20,128 nt of DNA from a virus, in the IMG/VR virus record IMGVR_UViG_3300027704_000220, positions 1-20,128 of that record, one strand, 5' to 3'. This document shows, one piece after another, positions 1-7,872 of the stretch (its first letter is position 1; every line of letters begins with the position of its first letter). The notes under the pieces were generated by a model. It was not told the origin of the DNA. It saw nothing but the letters and a program-made list of their open reading frames with translations, and ran no database searches. The position numbers and the translations under genes are program-made.

Positions 1-96
1 ACTTCCGAAAGAAGTGTTTTCTATAACAATACAACATATACTGATAAGGTTTTTAATAAATCTATAGATGATATGATAAAAGATAAAGATAGATAA
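1..96 (+). CDS. 3' end of a gene entering from the left (unknown)
   Basis: Frame 1 is open from the first base to a TAA at 94-96 and gives the last 31 residues of a protein (ends DDMIKDKDR). The tail is polar, rich in Asp, Lys and Asn, and has no recognisable motif. The next ATG lies only 2 bases after the stop, on the same strand and with the same tight packing as the rest of the cluster, so it is likely the end of a co-transcribed phage gene. Function cannot be judged from this fragment. Confidence 0.55.
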   Translation, partial: TSERSVFYNNTTYTDKVFNKSIDDMIKDKDR

Positions 97-98
97 CT

Positions 99-512
99 AT
101 GGCATTTAAACTGGGGAAAGAAAGAGGGATACAAATGTCTAATGGAGAGATCAAGAATAAGATGAGCTTCAATAAAGATAATGTATCTATACCTGGTGTG
201 CCTGTTTTCAGGAAGGATCTAGGCGAGGGAATAATGGGTGAGGCTAATATGGATGGAAGTATTTATCTTAGTAATAACGTTGAGCCTGGTAGTAAAGAAG
301 AGAGGGAAGTGTTGACTCATGAGATGAGACACGCAACTGATATGAAGATCGGTAAATTAAAATACGAAGATGATTATATAAAATATAATGGTGAAACGTA
401 CGCAAGGCAAGATAGAAACGGTGTGGATATGATTAAGTACGATGGAAAATGGATCCAAGCTGGTAGCATGGAGTTTCCTTGGGAACTTGAAGCAAACAAC
501 GGTAATAAATAA
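99..512 (+). CDS. HExxH zinc-metallopeptidase-like phage protein
   Basis: This 137-residue protein carries HEMRH at residues 74-78 inside VLTHEMRHATD, which has the form of a zincin zinc-binding helix (two His ligands and a catalytic Glu). About 50 residues later comes FPWELEA (126-132), whose Glu residues could give the third zinc ligand. I remember short marine-phage proteins with the same layout: an FKLG-type start, a VPV(F/Y) strand, HExxH and a late PWExEA. There is no signal peptide or membrane segment. The gene starts 2 bases after the previous stop and precedes beta-rich virion-type genes and a holin, so it may be virion-borne or act on the cell envelope. Substrate and activity are unknown. 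The motif is seen; peptidase function is inferred. An ATG at codon 13 is a possible later start. Confidence 0.72.
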   Translation: MAFKLGKERGIQMSNGEIKNKMSFNKDNVSIPGVPVFRKDLGEGIMGEANMDGSIYLSNNVEPGSKEEREVLTHEMRHATDMKIGKLKYEDDYIKYNGETYARQDRNGVDMIKYDGKWIQAGSMEFPWELEANNGNK

Positions 513-1612: not shown

Positions 1613-1900
1613 ATGCCATACAAGCAAAAACCAATGTCGTTCGGCGAGGGAACCGATAAGAAGAAGAATGACAAAAATAATAAAAAAGACGATACGTTTT
1701 TGAAAGATCAAAATGAATCAGAGGTTAAGTCTACAGATTATTTAACTAAAACACCAGTTGGTCCTGTAGCTCAAAAGAGCAAGTCTACTTATAACGAGAA
1801 AGAAGAGCAGATTGTAGAAAACATGTCTAATGCTAAAGATAATAACTTTGATGGTCACATGGAAATACAGATCAATAAGAATAAGAAAAAACAAAAGTAA
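1613..1900 (+). CDS. Small lysine/asparagine-rich hydrophilic protein (unknown)
   Basis: A 95-residue, strongly charged protein, rich in Lys, Asn and Asp, with few hydrophobic residues. It has low-complexity patches near residues 15-27 and at the C-terminus (NKNKKKQK). It is predicted to be largely disordered, and I do not recognise a family. The TAA stop overlaps the next start as TAATG (1898-1902), so it is probably translationally coupled to the holin gene. A small basic protein next to a holin could in principle be an accessory or antiholin-type factor, but nothing in the sequence shows that, and a minor virion protein is equally possible. Confidence 0.65.
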   Translation: MPYKQKPMSFGEGTDKKKNDKNNKKDDTFLKDQNESEVKSTDYLTKTPVGPVAQKSKSTYNEKEEQIVENMSNAKDNNFDGHMEIQINKNKKKQK

Positions 1901-2292
1901 TGAGTATTCTAACTAAATTACTTTCTGGTGGAGCAGCTAAACTTGTAGAAAGCGTAGGTGGAGTTATAGATAATCTACATACATCTAAAGATGAAAAGCT
2001 AGCGGCTGAGCTAAAGATTAAAGAACTTGTAGCGAGCTATGAAGCAGAAATGCAAAAACAAGTAACTGAGCGTTGGAAAATGGATATGGCTTCCGATTCA
2101 TGGCTAAGTAAAAATATAAGACCACTAGTTTTAATATTTCTAGTAGTATCTACGATACTGTTAGTTTTTATCGATGCCGGTGTAATTGCTTTTGAGGTTA
2201 AAGCTTCATGGGTGGACTTATTACAATTAGTATTAATAACTGTGATCGGTGCCTATTTTGGCGGTAGATCATTAGAAAAAGTAAAAAAATAA
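1900..2292 (+). CDS. Putative holin (3TM / GTA-holin-like)
   Basis: This 130-residue protein has the layout of the 3TM/GTA holin family. A short hydrophobic or amphipathic N-terminus (1-25) is followed by a charged helical linker (28-62) and a conserved-looking W-L-S-K-N-I-R-P element (68-75). Two membrane helices follow at about 75-93 and 104-120, then a short basic tail (SLEKVKK). Holins of this kind oligomerise in the inner membrane and let the endolysin reach the wall, or collapse the membrane potential, at the end of infection. The start is coupled to the upstream gene by TAATG. No endolysin is recognisable nearby; the HExxH protein at 99-512 is the only enzyme-like neighbour. A structural membrane protein is a less likely alternative. 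Confidence 0.72.
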   Translation: MSILTKLLSGGAAKLVESVGGVIDNLHTSKDEKLAAELKIKELVASYEAEMQKQVTERWKMDMASDSWLSKNIRPLVLIFLVVSTILLVFIDAGVIAFEVKASWVDLLQLVLITVIGAYFGGRSLEKVKK

Positions 2293-4641: not shown

Positions 4642-4843
4642 AATATCTATCGGTAAAGATTATAAGAATGACGCTATGCACTATGCCGTGGGGCAAGAAG
4701 TGTACGGTGGTCATACTATATGTGATATCATAGAGGAAAAAGATAAGTTTTCTGTTTACATTAAAAAAGGTAAAGATGTTTTGCCTTGGAAAGACTTTAA
4801 TAAAAACATGGCAGTATCTGTAGAGTATAACTTACAATACTAA
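4622..4843 (+). CDS. Small conserved phage protein (unknown)
   Basis: A 73-residue protein, MSKLIRKISIGKDYKNDAMH at the start and a VSVEYNLQY end, with VLPWKDFN in between. The pattern (I-R-K-x-x-I-G-x-D-Y-x-N-A-M-x-Y-x-x-G-Q and W-K-x-F-N-x-N-M) is one I recall from marine phage genomes, next to the gene that follows here. The protein looks like a small beta barrel. Its start lies 20 bases inside the previous gene and its stop overlaps the next start as TAATG (4841-4845), so translation of these three genes is probably linked. Function unknown. Confidence 0.72.
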   Translation: MSKLIRKISIGKDYKNDAMHYAVGQEVYGGHTICDIIEEKDKFSVYIKKGKDVLPWKDFNKNMAVSVEYNLQY

Positions 4844-5433
4844 TGAAAAGTGTTTACGACTTTGTTGTAGCACCAAAAGGAGAAAGATACAACAACACTA
4901 AAACGCTAGATGGTGGAGAGCTAATCTTAAATACTGAGATATATAACCATCAGTATGTCAATAGAGAAGCTACAGTAGTATCCACTCCAATAGTTGGGCA
5001 CGCAGATATAATAGCTGGTGACACTGTTTTAATACACCACAATGTCTTTAGACGATGGCACAATGTAAAAGGCATAGAGAAGAATAGTAGAAGCTATTTT
5101 AATGAATCAACTTACTTTATAGGTGAAGATCAAATCTTTTTATATAAAAGAGATGAGGAGTGGATTTGCCCTAAGGGATATTGCTTTGTAATGCCTTTAA
5201 AAGCTACGGATCAATTTAACATTGAATCTGAAAAACCCCTACAAGGTATCGTTAAGTATTCTGACGGTACAGTTGAGAAAAACGACTTAGTCGGATTTCG
5301 TCCAAGTAGTGAATACGAGTTTATCGTTGATAACGAAAGACTATATCGAGTTAAATCTAATTTTATTACAATCAAATATGAACATCAAGGAAACGAAGAA
5401 GAGTATAATCCAAGCTGGGCACAAAGCAGTTGA
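4843..5433 (+). CDS. GroES-like co-chaperonin candidate with two lobes
   Basis: A 196-residue protein whose first half follows the GroES strand order. It has VYDFVVAPKGERYNN (4-18), GGELILN (24-30, like GroES GGI.LP), REATVVSTP (41-49, like G.VVAVG) and IIAGDTVLIHHNVFRRW (56-72, like VKVGD.VLF..Y.G), ending in GEDQIFLYK. The second half repeats the scheme: YCFVMPLKA (113-121), PLQGIVKYSDG, KNDLVGFRPSSEYEF (146-160), ERLYRVKSNFITIKYE. GroES caps GroEL chambers; phages such as T4 encode their own co-chaperonin (gp31) for capsid folding. The gene lies just before the terminase genes, where such a factor would be useful. I remember close relatives in marine phages. The fold assignment is by eye and there is no biochemical evidence. 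It overlaps the next gene by 56 bases. Confidence 0.6.
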   Translation: MKSVYDFVVAPKGERYNNTKTLDGGELILNTEIYNHQYVNREATVVSTPIVGHADIIAGDTVLIHHNVFRRWHNVKGIEKNSRSYFNESTYFIGEDQIFLYKRDEEWICPKGYCFVMPLKATDQFNIESEKPLQGIVKYSDGTVEKNDLVGFRPSSEYEFIVDNERLYRVKSNFITIKYEHQGNEEEYNPSWAQSS

Positions 5434-5656
5434 AGAGCTAATTAAAGTGGCAAAGGAAGCTATAGTAACAGACTCTGAAGATGATTTAACAGCCGATAAG
5501 TTAAAGAATGCCGCAGCGTCTAAAAAACTAGCTATATTTGACGCATTTGAAATACTTAACAGAATTGAAGAAGAAGAAAACTTGCTTGAGGGTAAAACAC
5601 CTGAAAAGGCAGAGGAAAAAACTTTTAAAGGATTCGCAGAAGGTAGATCTAAATAA
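5378..5656 (+). CDS. Putative small terminase subunit
   Basis: A 92-residue helical, acidic protein directly upstream of the large terminase, with its stop overlapping the TerL start (TAATG at 5654-5658). It reads AGHKAVEELIKVAKEAI, then DLTADKLKNAAASKKLAIFD (residues ~38-57), then a Glu-rich helix and FKGFAEGRSK. I chose ATG 5378 rather than the in-frame ATG at 5309: the earlier codons give a hydrophobic stretch inside the previous gene, while MNIKETKKS begins the part that resembles remembered relatives. Position and size fit a small terminase, which recognises phage DNA and regulates TerL, but I see no clear helix-turn-helix, so the function is inferred from context. The 56-base overlap with the GroES-like gene is unusually long for this window. 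Confidence 0.6.
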   Translation: MNIKETKKSIIQAGHKAVEELIKVAKEAIVTDSEDDLTADKLKNAAASKKLAIFDAFEILNRIEEEENLLEGKTPEKAEEKTFKGFAEGRSK

Positions 5657-7872
5657 TGTACAAGCAAAGTTTAGTTAAGACGGTTGAGCCTATAAAGAAA
5701 ACCACTATTTCCAGGATGAACAAAGGAAAGAAGTGGAAGTATGGTTACAATAAAGAACAGGACTTAATAGTCCTCTCGCGTAACGGTCAAATAGGAGAGA
5801 TCATAGAAATACAAAACCTAGCGATCGCTCTACCTAAGGTGCCTAAGGATGTGTATAAGAACCCTAAAGATAAATGGGTTAAGTTTGATCAGCCAAAAGA
5901 ATTAGAGCGCTTAAAAAACATATTTGACTGGCGTGCTTACCCGGAAGATCAAAAAGATCAATGGCATGATTATATAGACGAAGAATTTAGAAGAAGAGAA
6001 GAAGGTTTTTGGTTTACTAACGATGGCAAGCCAACGTGGATAACGGGCACTCATTACATGTACTTACAGTGGAGCAAGATTGATGTTGGAGCTGCTGATT
6101 TTAGAGAAGCAAATAGGCTGTTCTTTATTTTCTGGGAAGCCTGCAAAGCTGATAAAAGATGTTACGGGATGTGCTATCTTAAAAATAGAAGATCTGGATT
6201 TTCTTTCATGTCTTCAGCAGAAACAGTTAACTTAGCCACTCTTGCAAGTGATAGTAGATACGGAATACTATCTAAATCAGGAGCTGATGCTAAAAAAATG
6301 TTTACCGACAAAGTTGTACCTATATCAATTAACTACCCATTCTTTTTTAAACCTGTCCAAGATGGTATGGATCGCCCAAAATCCGAGCTTGCTTATCGTG
6401 TACCCGCTAGTAAGTTTACTAGAAAGAAGATCACGGCGAATGAAAAGCTCGAGGACATACAAGGGTTAGATACAACGATTGACTGGAAGAACACTGGAGA
6501 CAATAGTTATGATGGTGAGAAACTAGCACTACTAGTACATGACGAAAGTGGTAAGTGGGAAAGACCAGACAATATTCTTAATAACTGGAGAGTTACAAAA
6601 ACTTGTTTAAGATTAGGTAGTAGAATTATTGGTAAGTGTATGATGGGTAGTACTTCAAACGCTTTAGATAAAGGTGGAGAAAACTTTAAAAAACTATACA
6701 ATGCTTCAGACGTTACAAAAAGAAACAGAAATGGCCAGACAAAGTCTGGTTTATACTCTTTGTTTATCCCAATGGAATGGAACTACGAAGGATTTATTGA
6801 TGAGTACGGAGTTCCAGTTTTCACTACTCCTGATGTCGATAGGTTCGACCCAAGCGGTGAATTAATAGATGTAGGCGTAATAGATAACTGGCAAAATGAA
6901 GTTGATGGCTTAAAAGATGATTCAGATGGTTTAAATGAATTCTATCGTCAGTTTCCAAGAACGACAGAGCACGCTTTTAGAGATGAGACTAAAGGAAGTA
7001 TATTTAACTTAGTTAAACTATATGAACAAATAGATTATAACGAGGAAATGTCTAGAACGCTAGGGGTTACTCAAGGTAATTTTCAATGGGTTAATGGAAT
7101 AAAAGATTCTCAAGTAATATTTTACCCAGATCCAAAGGGTAGGTTTAAAGTTAGCTGGGTTCCACCTCAACAACTGCAAAACAAAGTTATATTAAAAAAC
7201 GGTATTAGATATCCTGGTAATGAGCATATGGGTTCTTTCGGTTGCGATAGCTATGACATATCAGGAACAGTGGATGGAGTTGGATCTAAAGGAGCTTTAC
7301 ATGGGTTGACAAAGTTTTCAATGGAAGATGCTCCGGCTAACAGTTTCTTTTTAGAATACTTGTCTAGACCTCCAACAGCAGAGATGTTCTTTGAAGATGT
7401 TCTAATGGCTTTAATATTTTATGGAATGCCAATATTAGCCGAGAACAATAAACCACGTTTACTGTATTACCTAAGGCGAAGAGGATACAGAGGGTTTAGC
7501 ATGAACAGGCCTGATAAAATATGGAACAAATTATCTGTAGCAGAAAAAGAAGTTGGTGGAATACCTAACTCAAGTGAAGATATAAAACAAGCGCATGCTG
7601 CCGCTATTGAGATGTACATTCAAGATCACGTTGGCATGAAGCAAGATGGGTCGTTTGGAGATGTTTATTTTAATGAACTCCTAAATGATTGGACAAAGTT
7701 CGATATAAACAAAAGAACAAAACATGATGCGTCAATAAGCTCTGGGTTAGCTATCATGGCTAACAATCGGCATCTATATGCCCCAAATGCTAAGATTGAA
7801 AAAACGCCTGTAAATATACATATTTCAAGATACACGAACACCGGAGGTATGTCTAAAATAATTAAAGAATAA
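5656..7872 (+). CDS. terL: Terminase large subunit (packaging ATPase-nuclease)
   Basis: A 738-residue DNA-packaging motor subunit. The N-terminal ATPase has a P-loop-like KNRRSGFSF (176-184), a Walker B with catalytic acid LALLVHDESGKW (290-301; D296, E297) and a coupling-type GSTSNALDKGG (331-341). The C-terminal RNase H-type nuclease has an acidic cluster: FGCDSYDISG (D531), FFEDVLMALIFYGMPILAEN (578-597) and TKHDASISSGLA (D691). TerL cuts concatemeric DNA and pumps it into the prohead through the portal. GTHYMYLQWSKID (131-143) resembles the G.HYFYL segment of crAss-like terminases. The usual P-loop Lys after Gly is Phe here; I believe this is typical of the remembered marine relatives. 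The gene is full length, coupled to the upstream gene and one base before the portal gene. Confidence 0.93.
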   Translation: MYKQSLVKTVEPIKKTTISRMNKGKKWKYGYNKEQDLIVLSRNGQIGEIIEIQNLAIALPKVPKDVYKNPKDKWVKFDQPKELERLKNIFDWRAYPEDQKDQWHDYIDEEFRRREEGFWFTNDGKPTWITGTHYMYLQWSKIDVGAADFREANRLFFIFWEACKADKRCYGMCYLKNRRSGFSFMSSAETVNLATLASDSRYGILSKSGADAKKMFTDKVVPISINYPFFFKPVQDGMDRPKSELAYRVPASKFTRKKITANEKLEDIQGLDTTIDWKNTGDNSYDGEKLALLVHDESGKWERPDNILNNWRVTKTCLRLGSRIIGKCMMGSTSNALDKGGENFKKLYNASDVTKRNRNGQTKSGLYSLFIPMEWNYEGFIDEYGVPVFTTPDVDRFDPSGELIDVGVIDNWQNEVDGLKDDSDGLNEFYRQFPRTTEHAFRDETKGSIFNLVKLYEQIDYNEEMSRTLGVTQGNFQWVNGIKDSQVIFYPDPKGRFKVSWVPPQQLQNKVILKNGIRYPGNEHMGSFGCDSYDISGTVDGVGSKGALHGLTKFSMEDAPANSFFLEYLSRPPTAEMFFEDVLMALIFYGMPILAENNKPRLLYYLRRRGYRGFSMNRPDKIWNKLSVAEKEVGGIPNSSEDIKQAHAAAIEMYIQDHVGMKQDGSFGDVYFNELLNDWTKFDINKRTKHDASISSGLAIMANNRHLYAPNAKIEKTPVNIHISRYTNTGGMSKIIKE

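Follow-up and report, generated by a model that had tools for sequence, protein, structure and literature searches.

The window analysed here, a stretch of 20,128 bases from an IMG/VR virus record that is possibly a fragment, carries near its start a gene for a 137-residue zincin-type metallopeptidase (99..512, + strand), identified by its ORF, homologues and dN/dS. This zincin is very probably active, with Glu129 as its predicted third zinc ligand. The preliminary description had singled out two motifs in the protein, and both are seen in the ORF: HEMRH (residues 74-78; 318..332, +), with two predicted zinc ligands and the catalytic glutamate, and FPWELEA (residues 126-132; nt 474-494, +), which contains the PWE triplet (residues 127-129; 477..485, +). 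The first six codons, MAFKLG (99..116, +), encode a conserved leader that is predicted to be disordered. Immediately upstream lies the 3' end of another gene (1..96, +), whose stop is two bases ahead of the zincin start codon, and downstream are a putative three-TM holin (GTA_holin_3TM / phrog_3427; 1900..2292, +) and the large subunit of the terminase (5656..7872, +), both recognized by family match. The full proposal, to which we give slightly less than an even chance, is that an active gluzincin-type endopeptidase with E129 as a ligand is encoded by an accessory late gene and addressed by its FK[LM] leader to become cargo of the particle or prohead. Taken by itself, the late virion or cargo role is somewhat more tentative.

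A first scan of IMG/VR found 372 stretches with an encoded zincin relative, and a second, profile-based scan found at least 578. The relatives come from uncultured marine phages akin to Cellulophaga and Flavobacterium phages, among which the protein is broadly conserved; the terminase and portal of the window have kin in MW202828, Maribacter phage Panino, Flavobacterium elemo phages and Cellulophaga phages such as phi38:1. A single relative was found in genome contigs, in a MAG labelled Sphingobacteriales, which is too little to name a host. For the analysis of conservation, the best 80 loci kept from each scan, together with the one genome-contig locus, yielded 89 distinct zincin proteins. 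Since the patterns of the first scan did not contain PWE and those of the second did not contain HEMRH, the conservation of neither motif is purely an artefact of the search. His78, Pro127, Trp128, Glu129 and Ala132 are present in 89/89 proteins, as is Asp81, and His74 and Glu75 in 88/89, the remaining row being masked at these positions (88/88 resolved). Position 131 is occupied by Glu in 45 proteins, Asp in 43 and Gln in one. When the wider family is included (alignment A4, 68 divergent phage rows), seven columns are invariant: H74, E75, H78, P127, W128, E129 and A132.

These residues were examined again in a set anchored independently through the terminase, in which 24 of the 80 loci fetched hold a zincin as recognized by an HMM (itself built from the 89 proteins), giving 25 rows with the window. 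Glu75, His78, Trp128 and Glu129 are found in all 25 rows, His74 in 24, Pro127 in 23, Ala132 in 21 and Asp81 in 19. Position 131 is occupied by seven residue types (E8, D8, T3, M2, N2, R1, L1), and the zincin of locus L179, for example, carries PWEIRA. The preliminary description had left the third ligand as either E129 or E131; because position 131 varies freely and E129 is invariant, E131 is rejected and E129 is the predicted ligand, a choice for which the terminase-anchored rows speak most clearly. Thus both histidines, the catalytic glutamate and one glutamate of PWELEA are conserved across the homologues, the pattern that the preliminary description had proposed to look for. The exception is a divergent zincin (L260:2800-3174), which has Glu in place of the first His and keeps E75, H78, W128 and E129. 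Comparison of the window gene with six ungapped relatives gave dN/dS values of 0.03-0.10 (a seventh comparison, L006-L009, was saturated), indicating strong purifying selection at the sequence level. The reading frame, the ligand set and this selection are supported by sequence, and from the latter two, which argue for an active zinc protease, we infer activity.

Two AlphaFold2 models (from 59 and 66 rows; mean pLDDT 76 and 78, pTM 0.61 and 0.67) place HExxH on helix 66-83 and PWE on helix 127-132, with a beta-rich insert between them, and model the N-terminal start at low confidence (pLDDT below 50 for residues 1-20 in one of them). The structural neighbours are mostly zincins, all with modest scores by the tool's own yardstick: PprI (Z 5.7, 88 residues, rmsd 3.5), IrrE (Z 5.4, 92 residues, rmsd 3.6), an M. 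tuberculosis transcriptional regulator (Z 5.4), SPRTN (Z 5.3, 82 residues, rmsd 4.5), ArdC (Z 4.7, 81 residues, rmsd 4.0) and abylysin (Z 4.6, 55 residues, rmsd 2.8, limited in the better model to residues 22-84). The insert region matches GAS2 and frataxin domains. When the models were searched against the PDB with Foldseek, nothing matched at E<=0.001; SprT/SPRTN stood in the top row at E 0.11. Among the best matches, IrrE/PprI (Peptidase_M78) shares HExxH and a Glu on the following helix with the window zincin, at 16-17% identity over 88-92 residues and with Z scores (5.4 and 5.7) below the level that the tool treats as trustworthy. According to excerpts of PMC7848106, IrrE requires H82, E83, H86 and E113; the alignment, which ends at residue 134 of the model and 118 of the IrrE chain, suggests that E129 would correspond to E113, provided that its final stretch is free of gaps. 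The distance from the second His to this Glu is 27 residues in IrrE (H86-E113) and 51 in the window zincin, a longer gap that is due to the beta-rich insert, and the window zincin, unlike IrrE/PprI, is without an HTH or GAF domain.

The protein thus has what defines the zincin superfamily, a HExxH motif in which the Glu and the two His are conserved (the first His is lost in 1/25). Only sequence conservation and the secondary structure of the models place it among the gluzincins, with E129 on a helix after HExxH. The description of a compact gluzincin-like enzyme therefore holds for the conserved HExxH and E129 and for the two motifs, predicted to lie on separate helices; the argument from the lack of another lytic enzyme does not (see below). 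Within the four Pfam families listed for the window protein no model reaches its cut-off (Peptidase M90, 13.5 against 26.2 bits; M91, 17.8 against 25 bits), and Peptidase_M78 is not among them. In the SprT family the third zinc ligand is a His. The window family shares the active-site helix and preceding strands with SprT/SPRTN in the model, but H74 and H78 are the only invariant His in its alignments; the Pfam SprT-like model matches 5 of 59 family members, at best with E 0.0049. Minigluzincins (abylysin, selecase/jannalysin) show that a zincin scaffold can be as small as about 100 residues, and their matches to the window are weak in both structure and sequence, with no significant sequence match to abylysin or selecase (best, selecase, E 0.62). 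NCBIfam returned nothing meaningful, the PADLOC search with two proteins gave no match, and the Pfam, PHROGs and NCBIfam matches of the window protein include no known peptidoglycan hydrolase family. The strings PWEIEA and PWEXEA occur in no paper of the open PMC literature, where a search joining SprT-like, phage, metalloprotease and cyanophage likewise found nothing. By sequence comparison, the window protein is a new, so far unnamed, clade-specific phage zincin, below every Pfam cut-off listed.

Beyond this clade, the window zincin belongs with phage PWE zincins (phrog_16532/10499), with which it shows homology with both motifs aligned. Against viral structure predictions, Foldseek retrieved an uncultured-virus protein (E 6.5e-7) and a Tenacibaculum phage pT24 protein (BPT24_172; E 4e-4), followed by SprT-like and cyanophage proteins. 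The pT24 protein has HEATH and FPWEIEA and is also found by the window-family profile A1 (E 8.7e-7). The proteins of Prochlorococcus phage P-HM1 (PHM1_042) and Sinorhizobium phage phiM12 were not found by this profile; what connects them to the window zincin is the motif, the structural match and a comparison of one family with the other: hhalign of A1 with the cyanophage family A2 gave E 4.6e-5 and probability 68.5, with HExxH on HExxH and PWE on PWE. All these proteins resemble the window zincin in length and combine HExxH with a late PWExxA, but they are without the FKLG leader, stand in other genome contexts and mostly have Q three residues past HExxH, where the window family has D. Most are annotated as hypothetical, one (S-BM3) as a WLM protease domain protein and several under SprT-like names. 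The distant homologues of P-HM1 and phiM12 have small non-virion genes as neighbours and are not part of virion clusters. Scans with a second phiM12 protein and with the pT24 protein returned only the phiN3 counterpart and pT24 itself, respectively, and A1 found no zincin relative in the four cultured or named related phages searched. In the polyvalent proteins of phages and plasmids no domain is commoner than the zincin, for which a role in processing co-packaged proteins or cutting host proteins has been proposed; excerpts of this source (PMC5512222) describe HExxH, a second-helix Glu, variable inserts between the two and, in one type, an Asp three residues past HExxH. D81 of the window zincin is shared with that type, and the window protein stands alone at 137 residues, whereas the polyvalent-protein zincins are domains of large proteins.

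In the relatives, the zincin gene occupies a fixed position, with a winged-helix-like gene (a label that is our reading of the sequence), GroES and GroEL upstream and a holin relative within eight genes downstream in 77/80 loci, at +1 in 30 and +2 in 28 of these 77; the terminase is visible in 37 of the 80. The winged-helix-like protein encoded immediately before the slot (L134:6343-6783 and equivalents) is conserved, has 146 residues and matches no PHROG or Pfam family; a protein resembling it in MW202828 is annotated as a repressor and lies on the opposite strand. The window itself encodes a GroES-like protein (4843-5433; phrog_13932) just ahead of the terminase, and relatives also have an upstream GroEL/GroES pair. 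In one locus, an inserted ORF of 2426 residues separates the holin from the genes close to the terminase (L211:1092-8372). Among terminase loci whose upstream sequence exceeds 6 kb, 12/18 have the zincin, as do 4/9 of those exceeding 7 kb. Absence from some loci is uncertain, as large inserts push the slot outside the fetched stretch, but it is clear in L251, where the winged-helix-like gene directly abuts the holin. The zincin gene is thus a dispensable accessory in a fixed slot.

The second feature of this neighbourhood is the N-terminal leader. All zincins start alike, in the segment predicted with low confidence, and among the 89 proteins L5 and G6 are conserved in 89/89, K4 in 88/89 and F3 in 86/89. 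An FK[LM] leader is also present on 21 of 100 neighbouring protein families against 0.7 expected, namely on 15/63 upstream clusters (0.6 expected) and 6/37 downstream clusters (0.1 expected); the strict motif used in this count left out 6/125 loci, one with masked letters (L004) and five with HEMKH rather than HEMRH. In three long genomes, with the zincin excluded, 2/68, 6/63 and 4/48 ORFs have FK[LM] within 22 residues, against 0.33, 0.40 and 0.27 after shuffling. The neighbours' consensus is FK[ML][KR][GS], and the tagged proteins are small, unrelated and basic; the peptide FK[LM][KR][GS] is seen on unrelated small proteins in many zincin loci, for example L134:257-2087 and L131:2870-9179. 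In the window, two adjacent proteins (535-1128 and 1154-1594) have a near-identical start (MATLTPTLTLAS), and like pairs occur near 46 kb in the long relative G009. For ten zincins chosen out of the 25, leaders were compared with those of their neighbours using 200 shuffles. Three (L220, score 54; L188, 52; L260, 43) match unrelated neighbours with 0/200 shuffles as good in each case, and the best-matching neighbours inspected are without HExxH. Tag sharing is supported in part of the family. The window leader is not significantly like that of any neighbour (fraction of shuffles as good, 0.175), and five other tested leaders gave fractions of 0.065 to 0.735, or borderline values of 0.02-0.05 against unconvincing partners. 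Furthermore, the tagged proteins carry a median charge of +11 per 100 residues and mostly K/R at +3, whereas the zincins are slightly acidic (-3.5) and have G; the acidity, this G and the non-significant window leader count against a particle role. In related phages, FK[LM] within the first 22 residues was found in 0/64 ORFs of phi38:1 (part 24,000-72,534), 0/60 of Panino, 0/56 of MW202828 and 1/60 of elemoF, the last three also searched in part. The named structural proteins of phi38:1 were unusable for a leader test, as A1 finds no zincin there and the leader is absent from these ORFs. A tblastn search of phages with the first 51 residues of one leader protein gave no match, and the string FKMKG is in no paper of the open PMC literature.

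We propose that His74 and His78 on the active-site helix and E129 on the second helix would bind zinc, with E75 activating water and E131 serving as no ligand. The protein would be made with the late genes (GroEL/GroES, holin, terminase, capsid), and its flexible FK[LM] terminus would work as an address tag like those of the neighbouring small basic proteins, so that the zincin may be carried in the particle or prohead and would cut either phage proteins packaged alongside it or, once ejected, proteins of the host. Late expression, packaging and substrate are, like activity, inferred. The place of the gene among late genes, together with the shared leader, suggests such a particle-linked role by analogy with polyvalent proteins and with phage T4, in which, according to excerpts of PMC9026906, proteins enter the head by means of an N-terminal peptide of ten residues that a protease removes. 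The T4 capsid targeting sequence is like FK[LM] in being a short N-terminal peptide on otherwise unrelated small proteins; it differs in sequence and in being cut off by the prohead protease gp21. Against the proposal as a whole we count the modest structural scores, the loss of His in L260, the dispensability of the gene and the position of the P-HM1 and phiM12 homologues outside virion clusters.

A distinctly less probable reading, which we nevertheless rank as the main competitor, is that an active zincin remains inside the infected cell, where late in infection it would cut a protein of the host or of a defence system, its leader serving otherwise, for example in partner binding. The proposal that polyvalent-protein zincins process proteins or target host proteins (excerpts of PMC5512222), the non-virion surroundings of the P-HM1 and phiM12 homologues and the accessory nature of the gene all favour such an intracellular role, but the conserved late cluster and shared leader better suit a particle-linked one. 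The tag and the zincin co-occurring in one cluster, and the proteolytic removal of the T4 tags (excerpts of PMC9026906), could also point to a maturation protease whose substrates are the FK[LM]-tagged proteins, which it would trim much as T4 gp21 acts on its tagged internal proteins; we consider this unlikely.

A lysis accessory, a protease that works with the adjacent holin and has either the envelope or that holin as its target, is likewise improbable, if marginally less so than the maturation protease. It would fit the holin at +1 or +2 in most holin-bearing loci, and the preliminary description had remarked that the cluster shows no other lytic enzyme. Within the window as tested this observation stood, as no M15 signature is present and ten window proteins compared with PHROGs gave no other lytic enzyme. 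As an argument for lysis it was dropped, since all three long relatives (G002, G007 and G009) show an M15 signature in a protein of 151 residues that is encoded well away from the zincin and in G009 reaches 51.1 bits for Peptidase_M15_3 (cut-off 23.2) and has an endolysin PHROG match; the window's missing lytic enzyme therefore most likely reflects the limits of the window. Cultured or named related phages in which no zincin was detected carry peptidase M15, D-Ala-D-Ala carboxypeptidase, an annotated endolysin or an amidase. In L251 the holin is present although the zincin is missing, and inspection by eye of the zincin sequence shows no hydrophobic signal peptide. Least probable of all is a catalytically dead relative with a zinc-binding or structural function, close to the degenerate binding protein of the preliminary description. 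The L260 zincin without its first His is what such a protein might look like, but the retention of E75 in every resolved row of both sets and the low dN/dS make it very improbable.

A small and previously unnamed phage zincin thus gains an explicit ligand prediction, E129, that is open to a single point mutant. The FK[LM] leader is the more original lead. If it is a packaging signal, a large set of hypothetical phage proteins would be marked as particle cargo, and a route for loading foreign proteins into Bacteroidota phages would be available. Speculatively, and by analogy, uncultured marine phages related to those of Cellulophaga and Flavobacterium may use a modular FK[LM][KR][GS] virion-loading address on many unrelated small proteins, a Bacteroidota-phage counterpart of T4 capsid targeting, with a minimal zinc protease that rides along and would process the cargo or be injected with the DNA to cut host proteins.
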